IMG/VR virus record: IMGVR_UViG_3300042325_000039
Coordinates: 1 to 33,502 of that record
Source of the DNA: a virus
Direction: 5' to 3' (one strand)
DNA length: 33,502 nt
Positions 1 through 33,502 of this stretch are shown in pieces (the stretch's first letter is position 1; every line of letters begins with the position of its first letter). The position numbers and the translations under genes were made by a program. A model generated the notes under the pieces. It was not told the DNA's origin, ran no database searches, and saw nothing but the letters and a program-made list of their open reading frames with translations.

Positions 1-115
1 CCATACTACCGCAATTCATAACATTAAACAAGCAAATAACCTAATTGACACGGAAGATTGGTTTAAAGACAAAATGAAAAGAATTTGTCAAAAAATTGAA
101 ATTATCGAAAATTAG
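1..115 (+). CDS. DnaA domain IV-like protein, 3' end (continues from 33062)
   Basis: This is the C-terminal 37 codons of the gene annotated in full at 33062-33490, cut by linearisation of the circle. Reading from base 2, it begins with the HTTAIHNIK part of the DnaA signature helix and ends at the TAG at 113-115. It is not a separate gene and should be counted once. Confidence 0.9.
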   Translation, partial: HTTAIHNIKQANNLIDTEDWFKDKMKRICQKIEIIEN

Positions 116-125
116 TGTATATTTG
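96..125 (+). promoter_or_regulatory. Bacteroidota-type promoter for leader RNA and replication genes
   Basis: TTG at 96-98, a 19-base spacer and TATATTTG at 118-125 match the Bacteroidota primary-sigma consensus (TTG/TTTG, about 19 bases, TAnnTTTG). Transcription should start near base 131. The promoter overlaps the end of the DnaA-like gene and drives the structured leader at 131-225 and, by readthrough, the gene at 226. A second copy at 33471-33500 is the assembly overlap. Confidence 0.7.
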
Positions 126-130
126 CAGTA

Positions 131-224
131 TAGAAGACACATAGACGAACTGCGAACCGCCTATGTGTTTAGTGGTTAAATAATAATAACCCTGGTAGTT
201 CGCAGCTATCGGGGTTTATTTTTT
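131..224 (+). ncRNA. Putative structured leader/small RNA with kissing hairpin loops
   Basis: Hairpin 1 has an 8-bp perfect stem (ACACATAG 137-144 with CTATGTGT 161-168), extendable by a GU and an AU pair, and a 16-base loop at 145-160. Hairpin 2 is the terminator stem 190-198/206-214, with the 7-base loop TTCGCAG at 199-205. All seven loop bases are complementary to CTGCGAA at 150-156 inside loop 1, which would allow a kissing-loop or pseudoknot. A small alternative stem, GGTTA 174-178 with TAACC 187-191, would compete with the base of the terminator stem. A dedicated promoter lies just upstream and the U-tract ends at the start codon at 226. The RNA would be about 90 nt. It could be an attenuator of the replication gene or a free small RNA; I know no named family that it matches. 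Confidence 0.55.
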
Positions 225-225
225 T
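190..225 (+). terminator. Rho-independent terminator/attenuator abutting the start codon
   Basis: CCCTGGTAG (190-198) pairs with CTATCGGGG (206-214) over 9 bp, including two GU pairs, around a 7-base loop. TTTATTTTTTT follows at 215-225, directly before the ATG at 226. The wobbles make the hairpin stronger as + strand RNA. Its position between a good promoter and the replication gene points to attenuation. Confidence 0.7.
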
Positions 226-10536: not shown

Positions 10537-11217
10537 GTGAGTATAGCAAAAGCACAAATAAGGGAACTTCAGTCAAGCTTTATACAAAGCTTAGGCGATA
10601 CAGGGTTTGGCAAGGTCAACCCTAATGACCTACCTATATTGGAAAGGGTACTTGCAATCTATGGAGAAGCATTTAATAAAAGGGTTGCCCAAATATTAGA
10701 TGACGAAAAGATTACAAGTTCTGGTAAGTTAGCTAACCCTGCACAACCTATAATAACTAAATTTGGCACAGGCTATATTTTAAGTGTTGGTTATGAGCAA
10801 GGCAGCGAACAAGACAAGTACTTTAGATTTATCAATAAAGGGGTATTAGGTACAACAAATGAAAAGGCTGACCCAGATACACCTTATAAATTTGATAAGG
10901 CAAATAAAGCAGTTAATATAAGTGCCGTTCAAGAATGGCTAAGTTATAATAAGCTTAAGACAGTGGCAGTCAAGAAGTATAGTAAGCTTGGTGTGGAAAG
11001 CAAAGCTATTGAAAGCAAAAAGTCGTTAGCCTTTGTTATAGCAAGAAGCATACACAAAAAAGGTATTAGGTCTACTCACTACTTTGATAGAGCAATAGCG
11101 CAAATATTTAATAAAGATTTTATAGCAGATGTTGCACTGGCAATAGGCGGAGATGTGCAAATACAAATAAAGCAAACAGTAAACGAAATTAAGAATGGCA
11201 ATAACAATAACAAGTAG
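10537..11217 (+). CDS. Putative tail completion/neck protein
   Basis: A 226-residue soluble protein with a GTG start at 10537. KITSSGKLANPAQPIITKFG (residues 58-77), then YFRFINKGVLGTT and a basic HKKGIRSTHYFDRAIAQIF (174-192) are the pattern of the HK97 gp10/neck-like proteins of Bacteroidota phages, which close the tail or join it to the head. The C-terminus ends in an Asn-rich tail and overlaps the next gene by 23 bases. The family call is moderate, resting on motif layout and position among the tail genes. Confidence 0.5.
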   Translation: MSIAKAQIRELQSSFIQSLGDTGFGKVNPNDLPILERVLAIYGEAFNKRVAQILDDEKITSSGKLANPAQPIITKFGTGYILSVGYEQGSEQDKYFRFINKGVLGTTNEKADPDTPYKFDKANKAVNISAVQEWLSYNKLKTVAVKKYSKLGVESKAIESKKSLAFVIARSIHKKGIRSTHYFDRAIAQIFNKDFIADVALAIGGDVQIQIKQTVNEIKNGNNNNK

Positions 11218-33061: not shown

Positions 33062-33490
33062 ATGCTAACGAGAAATAAAGATGTTTCAATAAGACAACTA
33101 AAGGAGTTATATTATGCCCAGCGTAATACCCACGTTAAATTGCACGAAATGATGTCGCAGTTAGGGTTGTTAGGCATAGAAGACAACGAGCCTTTAGGTG
33201 CGGATATAGGTGCGAGAAGCATCGTTAAATTAGTTGAGGAAGTATTTGAGTGCGATATATCAAGAAGGGATAGGTCTTTACGAACTACCTTTGGTCGCAA
33301 GGCTGCTGCTTATTTACTTAGAAGGTATACCAAATTGAACCTCAAAGAGATAAGCGCATACACTGGCACTAAAGACCATACTACCGCAATTCATAACATT
33401 AAACAAGCAAATAACCTAATTGACACGGAAGATTGGTTTAAAGACAAAATGAAAAGAATTTGTCAAAAAATTGAAATTATCGAAAATTAG
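33062..33490 (+). CDS. Stand-alone DnaA domain IV-like protein
   Basis: A 142-residue protein. The C-terminal two thirds match DnaA domain IV, which binds DnaA boxes: a basic helix (RTTFGRKAAAYLLRRYTKLN, 74-93), NLKEISAYTG and the signature GTKDHTTAIHNIKQ (102-115). The N-terminal 50 residues are helical. The AAA+ ATPase and loader domains of DnaA are missing, so it cannot melt DNA as DnaA does. It may direct the host initiator, load the neighbouring Lin1244-type protein, or regulate transcription. The gene ends 3 bases before the promoter of the leader RNA (TATATTTG at 33493). No clear cluster of DnaA boxes was found. Confidence 0.82.
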   Translation: MLTRNKDVSIRQLKELYYAQRNTHVKLHEMMSQLGLLGIEDNEPLGADIGARSIVKLVEEVFECDISRRDRSLRTTFGRKAAAYLLRRYTKLNLKEISAYTGTKDHTTAIHNIKQANNLIDTEDWFKDKMKRICQKIEIIEN

Positions 33491-33502
33491 TGTATATTTG
33501 CA
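33376..33502. repeat. Terminal direct repeat, right copy
   Basis: Exact repeat of bases 1-127. The repeat closes the circle: the DnaA-like gene ends here and the promoter at 33471-33500 continues into base 128. In a circular map only one copy exists. Confidence 0.93.

Follow-up and report, generated by a model that had tools for sequence, protein, structure and literature searches.

The leader at positions 131–225 of the 33,502-base virus record analysed here in full (the window) is a ~90-base RNA in which two hairpins with complementary loops lie between a promoter and the ATG at 226. Judged by comparison of related sequences, it is an undescribed RNA family, a variant of leader attenuation, whose loop–loop joint probably serves to brake phage replication. 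The preferred reading, held with a probability of roughly 0.55, is that of a cis-acting attenuator leader in which a kissing complex within the RNA holds the terminator and the replication genes are kept low until released. The decisive evidence is comparative, and by that evidence the kissing leader is beyond chance. The family is frequent in uncultured phages, is placed at the DNA-replication switch and is common to phages with different initiator proteins. It would provide a natural example of a terminator with its own loop bound in cis, and it makes the effect of a loop–loop contact on intrinsic termination directly testable, with more than 20 natural loop pairs for swaps.

Genomic context and organisation of the leader

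The window carries a 127-bp direct terminal repeat (1–127 = 33376–33502), and the record probably represents an entire genome of ~33,375 bp, either circular or terminally redundant. The same leader is present in related contigs of 33.5–33.9 kb. Because of the repeat, the bases before 115 are the 3′-end of the gene at 33062–33490, which encodes a Bac_DnaA_C domain and ends at 114–115. Along the window, the end of this gene is followed by a promoter that overlaps it, by the leader and by a Lin1244_N gene (Table 1), which also matches PHROG 2562, ‘replication initiation protein’ (E = 3.6e-15). Two iteron-like arrays within the latter are a possible origin; their location recalls lambda O, where the origin lies within the initiator gene. 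The promoter pattern TTG-N18–20-TANNTTTG was seen seven times on the + strand of the window, with 1.5 matches expected, and the match at 33471 is the leader promoter site again, in the terminal repeat. Relatives of both families described below also carry a TANNTTTG-like element upstream of the leader. Transcription would be expected to start near 131. The promoter type (TAnnTTTG), together with related proteins in Bacteroidota records, points to Bacteroidota as the host phylum.

Table 1. Features of the leader region and first gene in the window
Feature	Position	Strand	Basis
Bacteroidota-type promoter, TTG-N19-TATATTTG (TTG 96–98, spacer 19 nt, −7 element TATATTTG 118–125)	96–125	+	Sequence match
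Hairpin 1, stem ACACATAG 137–144 / CTATGTGT 161–168, 16-nt loop 145–160	137–168	+	Sequence, folding
Kissing block CTGCGAAC in loop 1	150–157	+	Pairs with 198–205
Linker TTAGTGGTTAAATAATAAT	169–187	+	Nearly invariant in family A (alignment A3)
Terminator hairpin, 11-bp stem AACCCTGGTAG 188–198 / CTATCGGGGTT 206–216, 7-nt loop TTCGCAG 199–205	188–216	+	Sequence, folding; stem covaries
Kissing block GTTCGCAG (closing G + terminator loop)	198–205	+	Pairs with 150–157
T-tract, running into start codon ATG 226	215–225	+	Sequence
First gene, Lin1244_N (PF14297) replication initiation protein, 269 aa	226–1035	+	Pfam E = 1.4e-9
Two arrays of 11-bp iteron-like repeats within the replication gene	360–611 (360–419, 577–611)	+	Sequence

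The positions given in the initial annotation for the promoter, hairpins, loops, T-tract and ATG are all right by sequence. The pairing that it described between the terminator loop (TTCGCAG, 199–205) and loop 1 is present; the full loop–loop helix comprises 8 bp (150–157 with 198–205), and seven of its bases make up the entire terminator loop. An intrinsic terminator (stem 188–216, T-tract 215–225) thus sits between the promoter and the first gene, and it is kept in relatives. The terminator hairpin ends ~10 nt from the ATG; folded alone, it has a predicted free energy of −16.3 kcal/mol. The fold of the whole leader has a minimum free energy of −29.1 kcal/mol (z = −3.85), and one of 200 shuffles was equally good. 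In 71 family A leaders, the 14 nt preceding the ATG contain a mean of 10.7 T. In Flavobacterium, translation is raised by A residues at −3, −6, −12 and −13 (PMC6847099). These are missing from the start-codon context of the leader gene, which is consistent with low expression.

A third stem (174–178 with 187–191), proposed in the initial annotation as a competitor of the terminator, fits the window sequence but is lost in related leaders, where the TAACC site reads GACCC (L003) or GCCC (L013), and it forms no covarying helix. The covariation analysis found no covarying helix in the linker (169–187), and its near-invariance may mark a binding site.

Two leader families with covarying loops

Relatives were gathered by a replication-protein search (77 viral loci), with the family A linker as a search pattern (109 stretches) and with a family B search pattern (at least 120 stretches). 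For both families, the hairpins were chosen by a script that was blind to loop complementarity. The result is two leader families, with ~70 distinct leaders in family A and, among the matches listed, ~90 in family B, plus single relatives. In family A, loop 1 and the terminator loop match exactly over 8 bases in 67 of 71 distinct leaders, representing six types. The four exceptions are L192 (a G.U pair), L106 (one A.C pair), L205 (= L017), whose contig carries an inverted piece upstream of the leader, and L099, in which the script took the wrong hairpin and the correct one is present. Among the matches listed for family B, the match is exact over 7 bases in 82 of 92 leaders (ten types), and the other ten comprise eight in which the script missed the true hairpin although it is there, one non-leader and one leader with a replaced 5′ part. 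Matching loops are also found in the single relatives L044, L239, L037, L260 and L227 and in a second leader of L275. One of the natural loop pairs other than that of the window is GAGCGAAC/GTTCGCTC.

Neither of the covariance models R1 and R2 finds the other family; the architecture is common, with no detectable shared sequence, and common descent of the two families is not implied by it. One weak R1 match (E = 0.14), at 10648–10745 of L376, has a long terminator hairpin with an ATG directly after it and no evident kissing hairpin. Upstream of the initiator gene in L035, L040, L058 and L059, other terminator-like hairpins lie near the ATG and show long-range complementarity to upstream sequence; these are possibly further variants of the kissing-leader principle.

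Covariation of the loop pairing in relatives, set beforehand as the test of the proposed contact, was found in both families. In alignment A3 (33 family A leaders), 99.6% of the cells of the kissing helix are paired and five of its eight pairs have changed on both sides, while hairpin 1 is paired in 98.9% of cells and has two such pairs. In alignment A2 (27 family B leaders, among the matches listed), both-side changes occur at six of seven kissing pairs, and the only failing cells belong to L300 and L303, both misaligned by two columns. The whole-structure covariation score is 0.413 for A3 (0.163 in shuffles, at most 0.084 when slid) and 0.664 for A2 (0.210 and at most 0.145, respectively). 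In family B, conservation combined with covariation is confined to the kissing helix, hairpin 1 and the terminator stem in its lower and upper parts.

Many rows are phage fragments, and rows with kinship are not independent, so that cell counts overstate the number of events and it is safer to count distinct loop pairs. Across both families and the single relatives, all 22 of 22 distinct loop pairs (among the matches listed) are perfectly complementary. When partners were swapped, at most 7 of 22 were perfect in 20,000 permutations, and non-cognate pairs matched at a mean of 3.8 of 7 positions; this test is strictest for the 16 blindly picked types, because the single relatives were spotted by their loop match. 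Two hairpin loops are therefore paired in a helix kept by compensatory change, as in an intramolecular kissing loop, and since both loops have repeatedly changed together in evolution, the loop–loop joint is real. G.U pairs far outnumber A.C pairs (60 vs. 1 and 30 vs. 2), which assigns the structure to the + strand RNA and disfavours a cruciform or minus-strand structure. Covariation thus bears out the earlier proposal of a structured leader with paired loops that lies downstream of the promoter and upstream of the replication gene, and the G.U excess places it on the + strand RNA.

When both strands of 5.94 Mb were scanned blindly for a pair of hairpins whose loops are complementary, together with a T-tract and an ATG, 71 unique matches came up; 70 of them were leaders and the remaining one was a leader read in antisense. 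The strict scan of 1.45 Mb of shuffled locus sequence yielded none. This count shows specificity and not frequency, because the loci had been obtained via leader patterns or the initiator protein. A single element of this kind, its long stems having 10 and 11 pairs, is present in the window.

The Rfam check suggested initially returned no matching family for the leader: none was found at the gathering score in the window and nine relatives, and permissive limits gave neither a family nor anything resembling a cobalamin riboswitch. A DNA search of cultured phages gave no match. The family B model with strict filters had no match in 396 Bacteroidota genomes, a weak negative, as the set included no positive control. 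The open-access literature yielded no description of a comparable RNA from Bacteroidota phages. Two further candidate features were rejected. The frame of a family A leader peptide (ATGTGTTTAGTGGTTAAATAA, MCLVVK) is broken in L026, whereas in L195 it stays open and continues into the following gene; no comparable frame exists in family B. A kink-turn considered for the family B internal loop does not hold consistently among its members.

Genes downstream of the leader

The initial annotation tied the leader to a Lin1244-type gene. The leader does precede one in the window, but the association is too narrow, as the first genes range over several initiator types (Lin1244_N, DUF1376-like, HTH_36/DnaD-like and unassigned initiator-like), endonucleases (GIY-YIG and HNH-like) and one methylase-like gene. 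In L007, L013, L021, L004 and L037, an HNH homing-endonuclease-like gene lies exactly between the leader and the initiator gene (a label assigned by sequence look; the one gene tested gave no Pfam hit). Whatever gene follows, including an inserted homing endonuclease gene, the adjacency of U-tract and ATG is unchanged, with the ATG 0 to about 8 nt past the U-tract in the window and nearly all relatives. The second leader of contig L275 (7442–7530) has the loop pair GTGAGAT/ATCTCAC and precedes a NUMOD4/HNH gene located between late genes that are terminase-like and portal-like by position and appearance; the two loop pairs of this contig are only partly distinct. From these arrangements, the leader is seen to be a portable 5′ module. 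Since the first gene varies under the same leader, binding of one particular initiator cannot be the general trigger, and autoregulation by such a protein was rejected as a general mechanism.

Proposed mechanism and alternatives

The attenuator reading starts from a promoter match, two hairpins, a kissing helix on the + strand RNA, a U-tract and a place before replication genes. Transcription would start near 131 and hairpin 1 would fold first. On emerging from the polymerase, the terminator hairpin would be engaged through its loop by loop 1, with 7–8 Watson–Crick pairs; neither stem would open, and the two loops would form a kissing complex within one RNA. The kiss would keep the terminator hairpin closed, and most transcripts would presumably stop in the U-tract just 5′ of the ATG. 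In read-through transcripts, a kissing complex ~10 nt from the start codon may also lower translation. The leader would thus keep both the replication gene and transcription across its iterons low until the brake is released, either by a phage-modified RNA polymerase or by a factor of host or phage origin. The iteron-like repeats suggest a downstream origin, so read-through could also activate that origin.

No conserved alternative (antiterminator) fold was found; only hairpin 1, the kiss and the terminator stems covary, and the leader is therefore not a classical two-state attenuator. In family B, the complementary blocks are mostly two fully paired 7-nt stretches in tight 7-nt (or 9-nt) loops. 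With no conserved antiterminator and with blocks that fill such loops, the kiss and the terminator stem most likely coexist. Besides the lack of an alternative fold, two points count against the attenuator reading. The terminator looks strong without the kiss (the −16.3 kcal/mol given above), so that the gain from kissing is not explained, and a stable small RNA product could account equally well for the constant need for paired loops.

A stand-alone small RNA is an alternative of some weight, though unlikely. Its ~90-nt terminated product would be stabilised by the kiss and would function as a decoy or in trans, and the replication gene would depend on read-through. The leader's own promoter, compact fold and terminator, its high conservation across phages and the protection that kissing would give the RNA all fit such a product. 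The short interval from U-tract to ATG in the window and nearly all relatives, however, leaves no space for a second promoter, and as first genes are swapped while this spacing is kept, the leader RNA is tied to the gene. Loops saturated in cis would also be poor trans seeds, and on the + strand of the window there is a single further copy of GTTCGCAG and no second copy of CTGCGAAC.

Translational control seems improbable. The kiss would mask the start region or make it accessible, like the RepZ pseudoknot or the env8 cobalamin riboswitch, and the U-tract would be only a by-product. This alternative could draw on the closeness of the terminator hairpin to the ATG (~10 nt), the poor start context and the RepZ precedent (PMC8383071), but a long U-tract behind a GC-rich stem is a terminator requirement, and it is kept in every family.

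It is rather doubtful that released ~90-nt leader RNAs, each with its own loop pair, act on nascent like leaders to set replication and exclude close relatives, the variable kissing loops serving phages in the manner of plasmid copy-number RNAs. The loops vary no faster than the adjoining stems in families A and B, and the partly distinct loop pairs of L275 likewise count against trans-acting copy-number control.

By analogy with phage HK022, the folded leader might bind RNA polymerase and render it resistant to later pauses and terminators of a long operon, which is a long shot. HK022 putL is a ~70-nt two-stem RNA shortly 3′ of an early promoter and needs no dedicated proteins (PMC9378689), and the window leader too follows a promoter and heads a run of same-strand genes. 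However, the part of that account considered here mentions no U-tract behind the second stem of put, whereas the second stem of the leader is itself a terminator.

A chance loop match in an ordinary terminator is next to impossible: 7-mers do match randomly, with 2.75 weak matches per shuffled genome in a lenient scan, but the covariation in two families already refutes it, and the perfect cognate pairs (22/22) and the strict scan (70 leaders vs. 0 in shuffled sequence) stand against it as well.

Comparison with known RNA elements

In the antisense-controlled attenuators of pT181 and pIP501 and in ColE1 RNA I/RNA II, a leader RNA holds replication down and loop–loop contacts form between two RNAs. 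Unlike in these systems, the contact of the phage leader lies within one RNA.

In corrinoid riboswitches, an L5–L13 kissing loop stabilises the expression-platform hairpin and so steers a terminator or a ribosome-binding site (PMC10653944, PMC10907184), and in one of them the loop–loop contact promotes the terminator (PMC10653944). The leader likewise has an upstream hairpin that kisses a downstream terminator hairpin, and by this analogy the kiss should favour the terminator, with low default expression. Perfect, bulge-free loop contacts in corrinoid riboswitches tend to lock the state (PMC10653944, PMC10907184). The leader differs from them in having 7–8 perfect pairs with no bulge and in the participation of the terminator's own loop, and it lacks both a corrinoid aptamer core and an Rfam match.

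The RepZ leader of the IncI-alpha plasmid ColIb-P9 contains a pseudoknot that activates translation and with which an antisense RNA competes (PMC8383071). Both leaders place a long-range RNA pairing directly before a replication initiator gene (PMC8383071), but the second hairpin of the phage leader is a terminator and no antisense RNA is evident there. No convincing minus-strand promoter was found near the leader; TANNTTTG occurs on the minus strand at 792 and 913, within the chance number.

HK022 put shares with the leader a two-hairpin RNA right after a phage early promoter (PMC9378689). put suppresses termination, whereas the leader carries a terminator-like hairpin, and the kissing loops of the leader have no counterpart in the part of the put description drawn on here.
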